From the NCBI GenBank assembly GCA_016214125.1, contig JACRPC010000030.1, forward strand, positions 1-64,000: a stretch of DNA of 64,000 nucleotides, given 5' to 3'. Source of the DNA: Rhodospirillales bacterium. Lineage in GTDB: Bacteria > Pseudomonadota > Alphaproteobacteria > Rhodospirillales > WMHbin7. The notes below the pieces were generated by a model, which did not search any database, had not been told where the DNA came from, and saw only the letters and a list, made by a program, of their open reading frames with translations. Position numbers and translations under genes: made by a program. Of the stretch, positions 32,653 through 51,318 are shown piece after piece (within the stretch, counting starts at the first letter, position 1; each line of letters starts with the position of its first letter).

Positions 32653-32681
32653 TTGACGTTAATACCCTCCAATACGATACT
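32653..32681 (+). promoter_or_regulatory. Candidate sigma-70 promoter of the TRAP-flavoprotein operon
   Basis: TTGACG (32653-32658, 5 of 6) and GATACT (32676-32681, 4 of 6) are separated by 17 bases. The first copy of the CTTCGATGATCG repeat begins two bases after the -10 and could be an operator. Confidence 0.5.
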
Positions 32682-32860
32682 GCTTCGATGATCGGCCGGG
32701 GAATGGGACCCACGGCAGGCCGGCTTGGGGATCGTCCGATCCTGCGCATCCTTCGATGATCGCTCAAAGAGCGTCCGAGCTGAAACTTGATCCGCCGGCC
32801 GAGGGCCGATGCACCATTTTCCCGGCCCCACCGTCGACGGAAATTGCCGGCAAAGAATTA

Positions 32861-32884
32861 GGGACACCGGAGCCACCGGTGCCC
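32861..32884 (+). promoter_or_regulatory. Hairpin adjoining the RBS of the TAXI gene
   Basis: GGGACACCGG pairs with CCGGTGCCC (9 bp, one bulged A, 5-base loop AGCCA). It ends six bases before the GGGAGG Shine-Dalgarno at 32891. It could modulate translation start or mRNA stability; it lacks a U-run, so it is not an obvious terminator. Confidence 0.45.
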
Positions 32885-32902
32885 ATAAATGGGAGGCTTA
32901 CC

Positions 32903-33862
32903 ATGAAGATTCTTACCACCCTGGCGGCAATGATTGTGTCGCTGCTCGGTGCCAGCGCCAACGCCGCCAGTTGGGGGGTGGGCAGCGGGCCGCAGGGCAC
33001 GGTTATCTACACCTCCGCGGCGGCAATCGCCAAACTGGCTAGCGAGAAGGCGGGGCTCGACCTGCGGGTCCAGCCCTACGGTGGCTCGTCGCAATACGTA
33101 CCCCTGGTCGGCACCAAGGAAATCGACTTTGCCCTCGCCAATATTCTCGAGGTCAGTTCGGCGGTGGATGGAACCTTGATCTTCCAGGGCCGCAAAAGTC
33201 CCGACATCCGGGTGGTGGCGGTGATCTTTCCCTTGACCGGGAGCTTTTTCGTCCGGGCCGATTCGCCGATCAAGAGCCTCAAGGATTTGAAGGGCAAGCG
33301 GTTGCCGACCGGCTATTCCAGTCAGGCGATCATTCGCCCGCTGACCGACGCGGTGTTGGCCAATGGCATGATCTCGACCGACGATGTCAAAGCCGGTCCG
33401 GTGCCCAACGTCATCCGTGCGGCCGAGGACTTCGCGCAGGGCAAGGCCGACGCCTTTTTCTTCGGGATCGGCGGGGCCAAGGTCGCCGAGGTGGCGGCGG
33501 GTGTCGGCGGCGTGCGCCTGTTGCCGCTCGATGACGATCCGCGAGCGGTGGCGGCGATGCGCAAGATCGTGCCGCAGTCCTATATCACCACCCTGCAGCC
33601 TTCGGACAAATATGTCGGCGTGGTCGGGCCGACCAAGGTCATGGCCTATGATTTCCTGCTCATCGCCGGCGCCCATGTTCCCGACGAGATCGTCCACAAG
33701 CTGACCGCGACGATCGCCGCCAACAAGGCCGATCTGGCGGCGGCGGCGCCGTTTTTCTTCGATTTCGAGGTCGCCAAGATGGCCAAGAAAAACGGCCTTT
33801 CCTACCATCCGGGGGCGGTGAAATTCTATCAGGAAAGCGGTCTTTGGCCACCCAAGGACTGA
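32903..33862 (+). CDS. TAXI-type TRAP transporter solute-binding protein
   Basis: 319 residues with a signal peptide (MKILTTLAAMIVSLLGASANA) and the TAXI-family body: GTVIYTSAAAIAKLASEKAG, VQPYGGSSQYVPLV and DFALANILEV near the N-terminus. Periplasmic; delivers an organic acid-like ligand to the fused permease encoded 4 bases downstream. GGGAGG lies 6 bases before the ATG. TAXI proteins bind diverse carboxylates, so the ligand cannot be named; the linked redox genes are the best clue. Confidence 0.92.
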   Translation: MKILTTLAAMIVSLLGASANAASWGVGSGPQGTVIYTSAAAIAKLASEKAGLDLRVQPYGGSSQYVPLVGTKEIDFALANILEVSSAVDGTLIFQGRKSPDIRVVAVIFPLTGSFFVRADSPIKSLKDLKGKRLPTGYSSQAIIRPLTDAVLANGMISTDDVKAGPVPNVIRAAEDFAQGKADAFFFGIGGAKVAEVAAGVGGVRLLPLDDDPRAVAAMRKIVPQSYITTLQPSDKYVGVVGPTKVMAYDFLLIAGAHVPDEIVHKLTATIAANKADLAAAAPFFFDFEVAKMAKKNGLSYHPGAVKFYQESGLWPPKD

Positions 33863-33866
33863 CCGG

Positions 33867-35825
33867 ATGCCGCCCGAGCAATTGCCCGACGAATCAAATG
33901 TTGGCGATGCCCGTCAGGCCTCGCGCCTTGTTCGGGCGAGCGCGGATACGCTGGCGGCGCTGATCGTCATTTCCTCGGTGGTTTGGGCGGCCGACATCCC
34001 CCGGATGTTCGGCTTCATCGCCTACACCGAGCAGTTCCTGGCCATGATGTTGGGCTTGGCGCTGGCTCTTGCCTATCTGCGCCTCCCGGTTGGCGGGGGC
34101 AAGCGCCAGCGATTGCCCTGGTACGATGCTCTCGCCGCCGGTCTGGCCCTGGTGATTTGCCTCTACGTCGCCGCCCAATACACCATCTTGATCGATGAAA
34201 CCACCTTCCGACCGCTCAAGCTGGTTGTCGTCGGGGTCCTGTTGACGGGGTTGCTCTTGGAAGCCCTGCGCCGGATGGTGGGGCCGACCCTCTGCCTCGT
34301 CGTCCTGGTGTTTATCCTCTACGCTTTGTTCGGGCACCTGATCCCCGGCCGCCTCGCGGGGCGGCCGATCGCCATCGACCGTCTGGCCGTCTACATCGGG
34401 ATCGATTCCAATGCCGTCTTCGGCATGCCGATGATTGTCGGCACCATCGTCGTCATTCCCTTTATTCTGCTTGGCCAGGTCTTGGGGCGCTGCGGCGGTT
34501 CGGATTTCTTCACCGACATCGCGATCGCCTTGATGGGGCGCTACCGCGGCGGCTCGGCGAAAATCGCCGTGGTCGGCTCGGGCCTGTTCGGCATGATCTC
34601 GGGCAGCGCCGTCGCCAACGTCGCCACCGTCGGCACCATCACCATTCCGATGATGCGCCGGGCTGGCTACCCGGCGGCGTTGGCGGGGGCGATCGAGGCG
34701 GTGGGATCGACCGGCGGCCAGTTGATGCCACCGGTGATGGGCGCCGCCGCCTTCCTGATGGCGGAATTCCTGCAAACCAGCTACGGCGCGGTGTGCGTCG
34801 CCGCGACCATACCGGCCATCCTCTATTATCTCTCGCTGTTCGTGCAGGTCGATCTCGAGGCGGCGCGCAACGGCATCGCCGCCGTCAAGTCCGAGCGTTC
34901 GGTGCGAGCGGTCCTGGCTCAGGGTTGGCATGTTCCGATCCCGTTCGTCGTCCTCATCGTCGCCCTTTTCGGCTTCAACCTGCAGCCGGAATCGGCGATG
35001 CTGGTGGCGCTGCTGCCGCTTCTGGCCACCGGCTTTGCCTTGGGCTACCGCGGCCGCAAGCTGGTCTGGCGCGACCTGTGGCCGATTCTTTGCGCCGCCG
35101 GGGTCGGGGCACTGGACATCATCCTGATCTGCGCCGCCGCCGGCATCATCATCGGCATCCTCAATCTCTCGGGCCTGTCCTTCGCCCTGACCATGATCCT
35201 GGTCGAACTTGGCCACGGCAGCCTCGCGGTGCTGTTGCTGGCGGCGGCGGTGATCGCCCTGATCCTGGGCATGGGAATGCCGACGGTCGGCGTCTACGTC
35301 CTGGTCGCCACCCTGGTCGCGCCGGCGATGATCGAGATGGGAGTCTCGCCAATGGCCGCCCACATGTTCGTTTTCTATTTCGGGATGCTGTCGATGATCA
35401 CCCCGCCGGTCGCTCTCGCGGCCTACGCCGCCGCCAGTTTGGCCCACTCGGACGTCATGCGGGTCGGCTGGACCGCCTGCCGGGTCGGCTGGGTGGCCTT
35501 CATCGTCCCCTTCCTGTTTGTTGCCGCGCCCAACCTGCTGATGGTCGGCCATTGGTCCGACATCGGCTTGGCCTTGATCACCGCCATCGCCGGTTTGTGG
35601 TTCACGGCGGTCGGTGTGGTTGGGCATCTGAACGCGTCGTTGCGCCCCCTGCAACGCGCCCTGTTCACCATCGCCGGCATCCTGCTGCTGATTCCGGCCC
35701 AGGCCTTCCCCGGTGCGGTATGGACCGATATTCTTGGTGCCCTTCTGGGGCTTTTTCTTCTTTTCGTTCATTTCCCCAAGTTTCGCCGCCGTCTGTCGCC
35801 GACCCGCATTTCCGGAGGTTCGTAA
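33867..35825 (+). CDS. TRAP transporter fused permease (4TM/12TM)
   Basis: 652 residues, all membrane protein. A short N-terminal small-subunit-like part (about 30-150) is fused to the DctM-like large subunit with GMISGSAVANVATVGTITIP (about 245-265), GSTGGQLMPPVMGAAAFLMA and LGMGMPTVGVYVLVATLVAP, the hallmarks of TAXI-associated fusion permeases. Secondary, Na+-coupled uptake is expected. Stop codon directly abuts the flavoprotein start. Confidence 0.93.
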   Translation: MPPEQLPDESNVGDARQASRLVRASADTLAALIVISSVVWAADIPRMFGFIAYTEQFLAMMLGLALALAYLRLPVGGGKRQRLPWYDALAAGLALVICLYVAAQYTILIDETTFRPLKLVVVGVLLTGLLLEALRRMVGPTLCLVVLVFILYALFGHLIPGRLAGRPIAIDRLAVYIGIDSNAVFGMPMIVGTIVVIPFILLGQVLGRCGGSDFFTDIAIALMGRYRGGSAKIAVVGSGLFGMISGSAVANVATVGTITIPMMRRAGYPAALAGAIEAVGSTGGQLMPPVMGAAAFLMAEFLQTSYGAVCVAATIPAILYYLSLFVQVDLEAARNGIAAVKSERSVRAVLAQGWHVPIPFVVLIVALFGFNLQPESAMLVALLPLLATGFALGYRGRKLVWRDLWPILCAAGVGALDIILICAAAGIIIGILNLSGLSFALTMILVELGHGSLAVLLLAAAVIALILGMGMPTVGVYVLVATLVAPAMIEMGVSPMAAHMFVFYFGMLSMITPPVALAAYAAASLAHSDVMRVGWTACRVGWVAFIVPFLFVAAPNLLMVGHWSDIGLALITAIAGLWFTAVGVVGHLNASLRPLQRALFTIAGILLLIPAQAFPGAVWTDILGALLGLFLLFVHFPKFRRRLSPTRISGGS

Positions 35826-37520
35826 ATGTCCGCATGGCTTTCCGGTGAAGTTCACCGCATCAAGACCGACGTCGCCGTCATCGGCGGGGGCACCGCCGGC
35901 CTCAACGTCGCCATGGCGGCGCGCGAAGCTGGAGCCAGCGTGCTGATTGTCGATAAGGCGCACATCATGCGCTCGGGCGCGATTGCCGGGGGTATCGACC
36001 ATTTCATGGCCTATCTCGACACCGGCGAATCCTGGGACACCCGCGAGGCTTGGCTCAAATACGTCGGCAAGGTGGCGCGCGGCGCTGCCGATTTGCGCAT
36101 CCACGAGAAGGTGTTCTGCGACGAACTGCCCGCCGCCTTGGCGCGGGTCGAGAAGATCGGCATTTCGCTGCGCCAGAAGGATTCGGGCGAGATTTTCCGC
36201 ACCCAGACCCTCGGTCAACCGGGGCCGTACTCGATCAACTTCGACGGCAAGTTCCTCAAGCCGGCGATGGCCAAGGAAGTGGCGCGGCGCCGCTGCAAGG
36301 TGATCAATCGCGTGCAGGTTACCAACCTCTATCTGCACGATGGCGAACTTGCGGGCTTCGCCGGCTGGGACATGCGGACCGGCGACTTCTATGAGGTCCA
36401 GGCCAAGGCGGTGGTGATCGCCACCGGCAACACCAACCGCATGTTCAAGAGTCAGACCGGCAACCCGTTCAATCTGTGGTATTGCCCGGCCAATACCGGC
36501 GATCTGCACCGAGCCGCCTGGGACGCGGGGGTGGAACTGGCCAACGTCGAATACGTGCGCATGACCATTGTTCCCAAGGGCTTCAGCGCCCCCGGCTTCA
36601 ACGCCTTTTTCGGCATGGGCGGCAAGTTCGTCAACGGTCTGGGCGATGCGTTCATGAACACCTACCATCCGATGGGCGACAAAGCGCCGCGCAATGTGAT
36701 GGTGTGGGGGGCGCTGCAGGAGGTGCGGGCCGGCCGGGGGCCGATCTACATCGACGTTCGCCACCTCAAGCCGAAGGATCTCGAGCATCTGTTCTTCACC
36801 CTCGGCATCGACAAGGATACCCTGCCCGAGTTCCTCCACGCCAAGGGCTACAGCCGCGAGGGAACGATGATCGAGATGACGATTTCCGAGCCGATGCAGG
36901 CGCGGCCGTCGGAAATGTGCGGGGCGGGAATCAAGATCGACGAAACCTGCGCCTCCAACATTCCGGGCGTTTTCGGCGCCGGCGACGCGTCCGATCAGAT
37001 GGGCTGCCTGCACATGTGCATGGCCGGCGGTTTTGCCGCGGGCAAGCACGCCGCCCGTTATGCGCTCCGCCAGACGCGCCACCGTCCCCTTGATGCCAAG
37101 GTGCTGACCGCCGAGCGCAAGCGCGTCTTTGCCCCGTTGACCCGGCGGGCCGGCCTGCATTACGGCGAGTTCGAGGGCATCGTCCGCATCATCACCACCG
37201 ATCATTTCGGGCCGATCAAGACCGAGATCAGCCTGACCTCGGGCATCGCCAAGCTCGACCAGCTCGATTCGCACCGTGAGGAACTCAAGGCGTCCAATCT
37301 CCATGAGCTTATGCGTTGCCACGAGGCGATGAACATTCACGCGATGGCCAAGATCGTCGCCCACGCCTCGCTGGCGCGGCCCGAATCGCGCTTCAGTCCC
37401 TACCATCACCGGGCCGATCATCCTGAAACCAAGGACGAATATTGCGGTCTGGTGGTGGTTGGCAAGGGCGCCGACGGCCGCCCGACCACCCGTTTCCAGC
37501 CGCTTCACTACGCTGTCTGA
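35826..37520 (+). CDS. FAD-dependent oxidoreductase, AprA/FrdA-like subunit of unknown substrate
   Basis: 564 residues. N-terminal dinucleotide motif DVAVIGGGTAGLNVA (G20-G25), then VLIVDKAHIMRSGAIAGGID, which resembles adenylylsulfate reductase AprA more than SdhA/FrdA; GRGPIYIDVRHL and the second FAD motif IPGVFGAGDASDQMGCLH follow. By eye, the AprA segment that normally supplies an APS-binding Asn (G-L-x-A-I-N-x-Y) reads GIDHFMAYLD here, so true APS reductase activity is doubtful. Cytoplasmic, no twin-arginine signal. Partner ferredoxin is 12 bases downstream. Likely reduces or oxidises the solute imported by the TRAP system; inference. Confidence 0.82.
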   Translation: MSAWLSGEVHRIKTDVAVIGGGTAGLNVAMAAREAGASVLIVDKAHIMRSGAIAGGIDHFMAYLDTGESWDTREAWLKYVGKVARGAADLRIHEKVFCDELPAALARVEKIGISLRQKDSGEIFRTQTLGQPGPYSINFDGKFLKPAMAKEVARRRCKVINRVQVTNLYLHDGELAGFAGWDMRTGDFYEVQAKAVVIATGNTNRMFKSQTGNPFNLWYCPANTGDLHRAAWDAGVELANVEYVRMTIVPKGFSAPGFNAFFGMGGKFVNGLGDAFMNTYHPMGDKAPRNVMVWGALQEVRAGRGPIYIDVRHLKPKDLEHLFFTLGIDKDTLPEFLHAKGYSREGTMIEMTISEPMQARPSEMCGAGIKIDETCASNIPGVFGAGDASDQMGCLHMCMAGGFAAGKHAARYALRQTRHRPLDAKVLTAERKRVFAPLTRRAGLHYGEFEGIVRIITTDHFGPIKTEISLTSGIAKLDQLDSHREELKASNLHELMRCHEAMNIHAMAKIVAHASLARPESRFSPYHHRADHPETKDEYCGLVVVGKGADGRPTTRFQPLHYAV

Positions 37521-37532
37521 GAGGTTCCAGCC

Positions 37533-37733
37533 ATGACTGCCGTCATCGACAAGAAAAAGTGCAACGGCTGCGGCCTCTGCGCCCTCTATTGCCCGCTCGA
37601 CGTCATCTACATGGAAGACGGCATTGGCCATGTCGTCTATCCCGACGAATGCTGGCATTGCGGCGCCTGTCGGCAGGAATGCGCCAAGGGTGCGGTCCGC
37701 TTCGAGTTCGGGGCGATGATGCTGGCGGTGTGA
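37533..37733 (+). CDS. Small 2x[4Fe-4S] ferredoxin (AprB-like)
   Basis: 66 residues holding two clusters: C10-x2-C13-x2-C16-x3-C20-P and C40-x2-C43-x2-C46-x3-C50. The CWHCGACRQEC block is like AprB, but the long C-terminal tail of AprB is missing. It should pass electrons to or from the FAD protein encoded just upstream. GAGAGG precedes the ATG. Last gene of the operon. Confidence 0.92.
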   Translation: MTAVIDKKKCNGCGLCALYCPLDVIYMEDGIGHVVYPDECWHCGACRQECAKGAVRFEFGAMMLAV

Positions 37734-50058: not shown

Positions 50059-51318
50059 ATGGACGCGATCGTCGACAAGAAGGCGATGTTCGAGGAAAAG
50101 ACCAAGCGTTTGAACGACGCCGTCGCGCTCAAAGAGACCGACCGGGTGCCGGTCGCCTATTCGGCCATGTTCTGGCATTCCTTCTATGCCGGCGAGACGG
50201 TGCGGCGCGCAATGTACGATTATGACTGGCTGGCTGAGATCACGCTTAAGATCGCCCAGGATCTCGATCCCGACGGCGTCAACCCGCCGCACATGATCAA
50301 CGCGCTCGGTCCCACCATGGACCTGATCGGCTACAAGCAACTCGAATGGCCGGGCCACGGGGTCGATGAACATTCGGGCTATCAGTATGTCGACGCCGAA
50401 TACATGAAACCCGAGGAATACGACGACTTCATCATGGACCCGAGCTGGTTCTACCTGACCAAATTCATGCCCAGGGTGGCCGACATCTACGCCCCCTTTG
50501 CAAAATTGCCGCAGTTTCCAGCCTTCCAGCACACCCGCATGATCCAGATGAGCCGCTTCTTCGCCAACCCCGATCTCCAGGCGGCCTTCGACCGGCTGGG
50601 TAAGGCGGGCGAGGAAATGCTGCGCATGTTCGCTCGCGCCAACCGCTTCATCGACGAGTTGAAGGTGTTGGGATACCCCTTGTCGCAATCGACGACCAGC
50701 GCCGCGCCTTACGATTATTTCGCCGACTATCTGCGCGGCTCGAAGGGCATCATGCTCGATCTCTTCCGGCGTAAGGACAAGCTCTTGGAGGCGATGGAGC
50801 GCCTGGTGCCGATCCTGGTCCGCAACGGCGTGTTGGCCATCCAGCCTTTCGAGTGCAAGGTGATGTTCATGCCCATGCATTGGGGCCTGGATGGATTCAT
50901 GTCGCTCGACCAGTTCAAGACCTTCTTCTGGCCGCAACTGCGCAAGGTGATGATGGGCTTCATCGAAAACGGCATCGTGCCGCTCATCCTTTGGGAGGGC
51001 GATTGCGCCTCGCGCCTGGAAACCATCGCCGATGTTCCCAAGGGCACCTGCATCTACTGGTTCGAGCGCACCGACCTTCGCCTGGCCAAGGCGGTTTTGG
51101 GCAGCCATGTCTGCCTTAGGGGCAATGTGCCGCCCTCGCTTTTCAACACCGGCAACCCCGATGACGTCACCGACTATTGCCGCAGCCTGATCAAGGACGT
51201 CGGCAAGGGTGGCGGATTCATCCTGGATGGGGGCGTCGGCATCCCCGACGAGGCGAAAATCGAGAACGCAAGGGCCATGTACCAGGCCGCCAAGCGCTTC
51301 GCGCCCGGGGTGGGGTGA
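50059..51318 (+). CDS. Uroporphyrinogen decarboxylase superfamily protein (divergent)
   Basis: 419 residues with the URO-D/MtaA TIM-barrel: TDRVPVAYSAMFW near the N-terminus and LRGNVPPSLFNTGNPDDVTD near the C-terminus. It is about 70 residues longer than HemE and lacks the HemE N-terminal RPVWLMRQAGR signature, so it is not heme-pathway HemE. Where corrinoid/CoM methyltransferases of the family have an H-x-C motif, I see WEGDC. A methyltransferase or demethylase role is possible but unproven. Preceded by GGGAGG. Confidence 0.78.
   Translation: MDAIVDKKAMFEEKTKRLNDAVALKETDRVPVAYSAMFWHSFYAGETVRRAMYDYDWLAEITLKIAQDLDPDGVNPPHMINALGPTMDLIGYKQLEWPGHGVDEHSGYQYVDAEYMKPEEYDDFIMDPSWFYLTKFMPRVADIYAPFAKLPQFPAFQHTRMIQMSRFFANPDLQAAFDRLGKAGEEMLRMFARANRFIDELKVLGYPLSQSTTSAAPYDYFADYLRGSKGIMLDLFRRKDKLLEAMERLVPILVRNGVLAIQPFECKVMFMPMHWGLDGFMSLDQFKTFFWPQLRKVMMGFIENGIVPLILWEGDCASRLETIADVPKGTCIYWFERTDLRLAKAVLGSHVCLRGNVPPSLFNTGNPDDVTDYCRSLIKDVGKGGGFILDGGVGIPDEAKIENARAMYQAAKRFAPGVG

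Follow-up and report, generated by a model that had tools for sequence, protein, structure and literature searches.

The flavoprotein considered in this work has its closest described relative in the 3'-phosphoadenosine 5'-phosphosulfate (PAPS) reductase of M. thermolithotrophicus (8a8o), whose alpha subunit has the same fold and whose beta subunit is ferredoxin-like, with two [4Fe-4S] clusters. The parts of its description consulted here (PMC10322725) propose Trp42 as an electron-transfer residue, report that the catalytic residues proposed for adenosine 5'-phosphosulfate (APS) reductases are retained, and indicate that the enzyme co-occurs with sulfate-assimilation genes. A second point of comparison is the opa cluster for o-phthalate of Pseudomonas PTH10. 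According to the corresponding parts of its report (PMC6362003), this cluster combines genes of a tripartite ATP-independent periplasmic transporter with a TRAP-associated extracytoplasmic immunogenic solute-binding protein (TAXI-TRAP) with OpaD, a decarboxylase like aminocarboxymuconate-semialdehyde decarboxylase (ACMSD), and OpaE, a hydroxymuconic semialdehyde dehydrogenase. Here we describe a four-gene operon on the forward strand of a 64,000-nucleotide stretch of a Rhodospirillales bacterium (contig JACRPC010000030.1; the window), in which the two genes of a TAXI-TRAP importer are followed by those of a flavin adenine dinucleotide (FAD) flavoprotein, FLAV, and a small ferredoxin, FDX. The linkage of a TAXI importer and these redox genes is real and recurs in genomes of distant bacteria. 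The redox pair has an AprAB-type architecture and, by the tests made, belongs neither to AprAB nor to the succinate dehydrogenase/fumarate reductase or NadB families, and the module probably marks an uncharacterised route for organic-acid breakdown. Word-matching in open-licence papers, which is weak evidence of absence, found no description of the TAXI, flavoprotein and ferredoxin combination.

The first gene encodes a TAXI-family solute-binding protein of 319 amino acids (32903..33862; TIGR02122, 153.8 bits, cut-off 84.35), with 1us4, 8u79, 9oz4 and 8s4j as its nearest solved proteins, and the second a fused, DctQM-type TRAP permease of 652 amino acids (33867..35825; TIGR02123, 551.4 bits, cut-off 320.65; PF06808, 297.4 bits). 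Both proteins are above the NCBIfam cut-offs, as expected for members of the TAXI-TRAP family. FLAV, of 564 amino acids (35826..37520), was assigned to the fumarate reductase/AprA superfamily by family scores, tree, alignments and fold model, and FDX (37533..37733) is a 66-residue 2x[4Fe-4S] ferredoxin recognised by 4Fe-4S models, with an AprB-like core. The intergenic gaps are, in order, 4, 0 and 12 bases, as the first-pass annotation had described for a four-gene operon; the left end given there, 32653, coincides with the start of a promoter-like site, and the TAXI gene itself starts at 32903. Its reading frame opens at 32756, and the ATG at 32903 is preceded by GGGAGG and followed by a signal-peptide-like N-terminus. 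No obvious secretion signal was found in FLAV.

FLAV matches FAD_binding_2 with 110.6 bits. Its best NCBIfam match, over nearly the full length, is NF006131 (PRK08275), named 'fumarate reductase/succinate dehydrogenase flavoprotein subunit', at 296.5 bits and under the cut-off of 587. The scores with the APS reductase alpha model PRK06854 (245 bits) and with TIGR02061 for aprA (125.9 bits) are also under their cut-offs (557 and 641.75, respectively), and the best PDB sequence match is the PAPS reductase alpha subunit of M. thermolithotrophicus (180.9 bits), to which FLAV is about 25% identical. In a 38-row tree, clade G1 (support 100/100) unites FLAV with nine orthologues that are 66-77% identical to it, and is nested in a larger set with the groups SUB2 and SUB3 (96/91). 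AprA falls together with a plasmid-borne set (96/95), and SdhA, FrdA and NadB are the outgroup. It should be noted that the tree program flags long branches meeting at two places, the join of AprA with the plasmid-borne proteins and the outgroup, where long-branch attraction is possible, and that SUB2 is a working label for a group that, with L092 included, does not hold as a single clade (28% bootstrap support). The AlphaFold model of FLAV from 13 rows (pLDDT 78, pTM 0.84), which supersedes a 10-row model (pLDDT 58, pTM 0.59), is closest to 8a8o_A (TM 0.87/0.89, Z 45.4, rmsd 2.8, 537 residues). The model has the AprA fold (2fja_A, Z 39.7, rmsd 2.9, 540 residues) and compares with FrdA 1kf6 at Z 42.0. 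Residues 51-56, 129-132, 202-224, 254-257, 329-333 and 355-359 are under pLDDT 50, so part of the FLAV site, W218 included, is modelled without confidence. Taken together, clade G1 appears set apart from AprA and from SdhA, FrdA and NadB, and neither alignment nor fold comparison placed FLAV inside any of the characterised families compared with retention of the catalytic residues. Members of this flavoprotein superfamily frequently carry annotations as subunits of fumarate reductase or succinate dehydrogenase, and so did the plasmid hits in this work.

For the active sites we relied on residue numbers and roles that we take to hold for AprA (Asn74, Arg265, His398) and for the E. coli SdhA sites. 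FLAV resembles AprAB in fold, in the FAD motifs, in the RSGA segment, in W218, which corresponds to AprA W234 in the 38-row alignment, and in the CWxC motif of its partner FDX. The first-pass annotation had pointed out the RSGAIAGG and GIDHFMAYLD segments and the missing AprB tail, and the alignments bear these out. Within GIDHFMAYLD (35991..36020, forward strand), M61 occupies the place of AprA Asn74; the nine other G1 rows have F, F, M, M, M, S, H, H and V there, so that Asn occurs in 0/10. The Arg265 place is V249 in FLAV, and Val in 10/10 G1 rows. No conserved His is found among the G1 rows at the His398 place: the FLAV stretch 354-373 has none in 9/10 rows, and the His of L015 lies at the variable position 364. 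FDX carries eight cysteines and stops where the AprB tail starts (66 residues vs about 140-150 in two AprB). Its C40-W41-H42-C43 (37650..37661, forward strand) aligns with the C-W-E-C of the same two proteins, and CWHC is also present in the L016 ferredoxin. Furthermore, the source genome has a true AprA elsewhere (TIGR02061, 966.7 bits; G000 C3 15121-16965, L129), adjoined by an AprB-like frame, and FLAV is therefore not needed as an APS reductase. Identity as an APS reductase, which the first-pass annotation had considered improbable, was thus rejected on residues, on score and on the presence of this other AprA. With its genuine AprA and AprB-like frame, the organism may be capable of dissimilatory sulfur oxidation or sulfate reduction.

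Unlike the M. thermolithotrophicus enzyme, FLAV lacks those catalytic residues of APS reductases that could be compared, and it is tied to importer genes instead of sulfate-assimilation genes. However, the closest fold and the closest sequence are both those of the PAPS reductase alpha subunit, and FDX has the AprB-type CWxC, and for this reason we considered that FLAV and FDX could be a sulfur enzyme whose imported substrate, a sulfonate or another S-oxo compound, is reduced or split by the flavin-N5/sulfite chemistry known from APS and PAPS reductases. The TAXI protein also scores weakly with the SsuA family (26.3 bits, cut-off 163.5), and three plasmids carry distant pairs of an AprA-like flavoprotein and a ferredoxin near ABC transporter genes, with one solute-binding protein annotated as NrtA/SsuA/CpmA and, in one case, a sulfite exporter. 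Nevertheless, we regard this explanation as unlikely: the Asn74 and Arg265 places are substituted throughout the ten clade rows and no His is conserved at the His398 place, a genuine AprA is already present in the genome, and the recognised enzyme neighbours, in an annotation that is partial, are a decarboxylase-type amidohydrolase and, at two loci, ring-cleavage genes. The plasmid pairs, for their part, share another clade with AprA, where long-branch attraction may be at work, and retain the Asn as well as a GHS like that of AprA. These plasmids come from Cupriavidus, Pseudanabaena and Rhizobium (L020, L021, L022), and in them the AprA-like flavoprotein and ferredoxin are accompanied by a HEAT-repeat protein. 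In L021 a TauE/SafE sulfite exporter is encoded close by. These flavoproteins, with their Asn at the Asn74 place and AprA-like GHS, are possibly organosulfur enzymes.

With respect to the succinate dehydrogenase branch, the superfamily fold is shared and one residue is retained. In SdhA, FrdA and NadB, an arginine (Arg286, Arg288 and Arg290, respectively) is the proton shuttle of the branch that hydrogenates or dehydrogenates C-C bonds. R289 of FLAV (codon 36690..36692, forward strand) aligns with SdhA R286, FrdA R288 and NadB R290 and is kept in all the 10 G1, 10 SUB2 and 5 SUB3 rows aligned, and hhalign to NadB and FrdA agrees. MAFFT sets AprA R317 opposite M292, not R289, and hhalign to AprA left the placement unsettled, so the equivalence is claimed against SdhA, FrdA and NadB only. 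In contrast, the FLAV residues opposite SdhA H45, H242 and E255 in the 38-row alignment are G51, T247 and N259, SdhA R399 falls in a gap there, and the H354 place is S362, E363 or M364 depending on the aligner, with no conserved His. FLAV therefore differs from SdhA, FrdA and NadB at the H242, E255, R399 and H354 places; from SdhA and FrdA it differs also in having no His for covalent FAD and in its partner, a 66-residue ferredoxin instead of SdhB or FrdB. Identity as succinate dehydrogenase, fumarate reductase or L-aspartate oxidase was rejected on these residues. FLAV thus has neither the AprA nor the succinate dehydrogenase site in full, yet retains an arginine of the proton-shuttle type.

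The fumarate-reductase fold (the Z of 42.0 for 1kf6) and the retained R289 would also suit a respiratory module, in which an imported unsaturated acid serves as terminal electron acceptor, in the style of fumarate or urocanate reductase, and is not assimilated; molybdopterin oxidoreductase genes near several sister loci point in the same direction. We regard this explanation, too, as unlikely. FLAV is without an obvious secretion signal, its partner is a small ferredoxin and not the quinone-linked FrdB/C/D, and at the Burkholderiales loci L012 and L018 the pair sits among ring-cleavage genes that require oxygen. As a separate observation, molybdopterin oxidoreductase genes occur near flavoproteins of the FLAV branch or its relatives at L086-L089, L052 and L013; these calls come from Pfam for L087 and L013, from NCBIfam for L052 and from blastp only for the others.

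The recurrence of the module was analysed at 12 G1 loci, namely the window, the orthologue L117 and 10 loci with relatives obtained from 84,980 species genomes by a search with exact 8-residue patterns, which has limited recall. Gene calls at the relatives' loci are based on codon usage, and their blastp labels, against about 60 reference proteins, are homology labels; TctABC and some other gene names rest on sequence reading and are not curated annotation. FDX is within 200 bases of FLAV at 9/12 loci (the window, L010, L011, L012, L013, L016, L017, L018 and L117). It was not found at L014 (in a 17.5-kb slice), L015 or L019, and at the last two FLAV lies at the contig end. A TAXI gene is at most 10 kb from FLAV also at 9/12 loci (the window, L011-L014, L016-L018 and L117, not L010, L015 or L019), compared with an expectation of 0.61 loci derived from TAXI counts in 11 genomes (matches at E <= 1e-15, with a few fragments included). 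The resulting P of about 1e-10 assumes independent loci, and the G1 loci are not fully independent. The TAXI protein of L018 scores 75.4 bits, below the 84.35 cut-off, and an NMT1-type protein (56.8 bits) about 8 kb from FLAV in L015 was left out of the count. Identity to the TAXI protein of the window is 48% in L013 and 46% in L011, and 21-25% in L014, L016, L017 and L117; that of L018 aligns over 65 residues only (35%), and that of L012 has no direct match. Depending on the locus, the TAXI genes are upstream, downstream or divergent relative to FLAV. Because of this divergence and the varied order and strand, the linkage is not merely one inherited block. The first-pass annotation had tied an acid-type importer to an AprAB-like redox pair, a proposal that families and recurrent linkage support; the opposite outcome, with TRAP and redox genes unlinked elsewhere, did not occur.

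In the related groups, TAXI and/or TRAP permease genes are present at 7/13 SUB2 loci (L085-L093, L095, L125-L127; L094, L096 and L098, whose flavoproteins are 36-40% like the nearest reference, were excluded) and an amidohydrolase gene at 8/13, one of them a piece at a contig edge. TctA- and TctC-like genes are found at 8/9 SUB3 loci (L118-L121, L123 and L124 by blastp, L059 and L060 by sequence reading), and the remaining one, L122, has TctC pieces only. The transport partners near these flavoproteins are thus variable: TAXI, TctABC-like, DctPQM-like or major facilitator superfamily (MFS). This variability, together with L010, which has FLAV and FDX without TAXI, would agree with the importer being a bystander while FLAV and FDX work on an internal metabolite, with no substrate in common. 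We find such an arrangement improbable, given that three flavoprotein subfamilies are repeatedly linked to importers unrelated to one another (TAXI-TRAP, TctABC-like), and given the spacing of 4, 0 and 12 bases in the window. G1 itself is rare. In the class, 4/384 other genomes match FLAV at E <= 1e-40, none above 32% identity (with up to three candidates scored per genome), and 2/59 other relatives do so at E <= 1e-60, both at 34%. Scores of G1 level were found in 2/85, 2/399 and 1/316 genomes, including four starting or already known FLAV genomes. Among the loci examined, one Desulfobacterota contig (L097, G443 C100; L017) encodes, within about 16 kb, three paralogous flavoproteins and two amidohydrolases together with a TAXI-TRAP and a TctABC-like set. 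At L018 9989-11675 the flavoprotein is split across two frames in a metagenome-assembled genome, as in L091, which may be a sequencing error or a broken gene.

Another element of the module is a metal-dependent amidohydrolase (PF04909; 120 bits for L014) encoded inside the FLAV run at three Desulfobacterota loci, L014, L016 and L017. Its orthologue in the source genome is 63% identical and lies on another contig (G000 C6 55893-56906), so the description of the operon as self-contained in the first-pass annotation does not stand: a gene that belongs to the FLAV operon at those three loci is encoded here in trans, and the transport partners vary. The amidohydrolase is present in 10/10 FLAV genomes searched, the query's own included and G541 outside this search; apart from the source genome, the best matches reach 100% in the query's own genome and 79, 77, 66, 66, 60, 57, 52 and 46% in the eight others. 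At E <= 1e-50 it was found in 2/59 relatives other than the source genome. The Fisher P for co-occurrence is about 1e-8 (9/10 at >=52% vs 2/59), or 5e-8 without the query's genome; since the controls are of one order, the FLAV genomes span phyla and weaker relatives exist, the co-occurrence is support and not proof. The nearest solved proteins are the uncharacterised hydrolase 3ij6, gamma-resorcylate decarboxylase and ACMSD. HxH is the usual amidohydrolase motif, and its first His binds metal. In the 13 aligned sequences (including L047 9394-10422), Phe or Tyr replaces this first His and the second is kept in every case, and H8, H161, H215/H216 and D295 are invariant. Around the amidohydrolase, the C6 cluster encodes a MarR regulator, two aldehyde dehydrogenases, a PanE-like reductase, a thiamine diphosphate (ThDP) enzyme of family PRK08327 (614.8 bits, cut-off 456) and, by sequence reading, TctBAC-like importer genes. 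In L016, too, a PRK08327 gene (686.9 bits) comes after those for the TAXI protein and the permease, and in L054 and L057 one adjoins the amidohydrolase; L057 is from G015, a genome without a G1 FLAV.

As regards the substrate, the Burkholderiales locus L012 contains a LigB-family, extradiol-dioxygenase-like gene (73.2 bits), a 2-hydroxymuconic semialdehyde dehydrogenase (913 bits) and the hydratase HpaH (367 bits), both over cut-off, and a gene resembling class II aldolases that scores weakly for 3,4-dihydroxyphthalate decarboxylase (78.9 of 200 bits). L018 (L128), also from Burkholderiales, has close homologues of all four, and the neighbours of FLAV in L019 are presumably boxB and boxC. No ring-cleavage gene was seen beside the window operon when the open reading frames were read. 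The gene kinds around L012 and L018 are like those of the opa cluster, which differs, in the parts of its report consulted (PMC6362003), in using an o-phthalate dioxygenase system and in making no mention of a FLAV-FDX pair. Phthalate uptake is known via MFS, tripartite tricarboxylate (TTT), ABC or TAXI-TRAP transporters, according to the portion of the source consulted (PMC13040137). MFS, TctABC-like and TAXI-TRAP genes were likewise seen near FLAV. Circumstantially, these transporter types and the contexts of L012, L018 and L019 point to aromatic or alicyclic carboxylates. The first-pass annotation had put forward unsaturated carboxylates and sulfonates; sulfonates now seem less likely, and unsaturated, aromatic or alicyclic carboxylates remain as candidates.

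Two further possibilities were set aside. In a phmmer alignment to 9oz4, which we take to be VcGluP with an offset of 28 (an assignment that fits V44-Y45-Y46, S75 and Q93), the TAXI protein has Ile and Asn at the Y45 and Q93 places. These are the main glutamate-binding determinants of VcGluP in the part of its description consulted (PMC11574862), and glutamate uptake was therefore rejected. Benzene activation, considered through a 2026 paper on Desulfobacterota, was dropped; in the parts consulted, the cluster of that paper has a GlcDEF-like complex, and the main text is without the terms amidohydrolase, TRAP and thiamine (PMC13101534).

The explanation that we prefer, and hold with moderate confidence, is that the operon is an importer feeding an AprAB-shaped oxidoreductase that hydrogenates or dehydrogenates the imported carboxylate, which is afterwards decarboxylated. 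The operon would then be the entry module of a catabolic route for organic acids: the TAXI protein would capture the acid in the periplasm and the fused permease would import it, while FLAV with its FAD and FDX with its two [4Fe-4S] clusters would form an AprAB-shaped heterodimer in which electrons may move between FAD and clusters via W41 of FDX. FLAV would act on the imported acid or on its first product, most likely by hydrogenating or dehydrogenating a C-C bond, and R289 aligns with the position at which SdhA, FrdA and NadB have the proton-shuttle arginine. The product could pass to the amidohydrolase of ACMSD/gamma-resorcylate-decarboxylase type encoded in C6 with the ThDP enzyme and the aldehyde dehydrogenases. 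We lean slightly towards oxidation as the direction of the FLAV chemistry, and an aromatic or alicyclic carboxylate is our favoured guess for the substrate class. Gene order, linkage, clade, active-site differences and the presence of the partner gene are observed; complex formation, a pathway shared by the gene products and the proposed chemistry are what we infer.

Several observations weigh against this explanation. The two relatives without a G1 FLAV that also carry the amidohydrolase, and the 6-26 amidohydrolase relatives (E <= 0.001) in each FLAV genome, bear on the co-occurrence argument, which the latter weaken. PRK08327 is above cut-off in 7/10 FLAV genomes (not in G441, G443 and G447), and the two non-FLAV genomes in the search, G015 and G022, have it above cut-off as well. 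A separate importer belongs to the C6 cluster, which is not linked to the operon, so that cluster and operon may handle different acids. Besides, L010 has FLAV and FDX followed by an MFS gene with no TAXI, the 17.5-kb slice of L014 gave no FDX match, and the close kinship in fold with a PAPS reductase leaves sulfur chemistry possible for FLAV.

A whole clade that has an active site of its own and is linked, in several groups of bacteria, to acid importers and to a decarboxylase-like enzyme would amount to a misannotated enzyme family. The adjacent TAXI gene is a handle on the substrate, and its ligand would make the reaction testable. A more specific idea, which we offer tentatively and consider doubtful, is that FLAV and FDX represent a new class of AprAB-shaped, ferredoxin-coupled enzymes that hydrogenate or dehydrogenate free (non-CoA) aromatic or alicyclic carboxylates after import and deliver the product to a TIM-barrel decarboxylase. 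If true, this would be an oxygen-independent entry route common to Desulfobacterota and to proteobacteria with ring-cleavage genes.

Concerning the surroundings of the operon, the promoter-like site mentioned above, TTGACG-17-GATACT (32653..32681, forward strand), is a consensus match only, and the region has 4 such sites vs 1.1 expected in shuffles, a weak excess. The open reading frames of the window were read by eye and the names of the neighbours come from this reading, not from a family search: bactofilin-like and lipoprotein-like genes upstream, and an LpoA-like gene on the opposite strand and an RsmI-like gene downstream, all housekeeping-like. No regulator or catabolic gene was seen beside the operon in this reading, made without a family search, which agrees with the first-pass annotation. 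ARAGORN found no tRNA in the window, and there was no Rfam match at the gathering score. The G+C content of the operon is 0.63-0.65 per kb, slightly under most of its flanks (0.64-0.72). Elsewhere in the window, 50059-51318 encodes a URO-D family protein, recognised with 70.6 bits across the C-terminal half.

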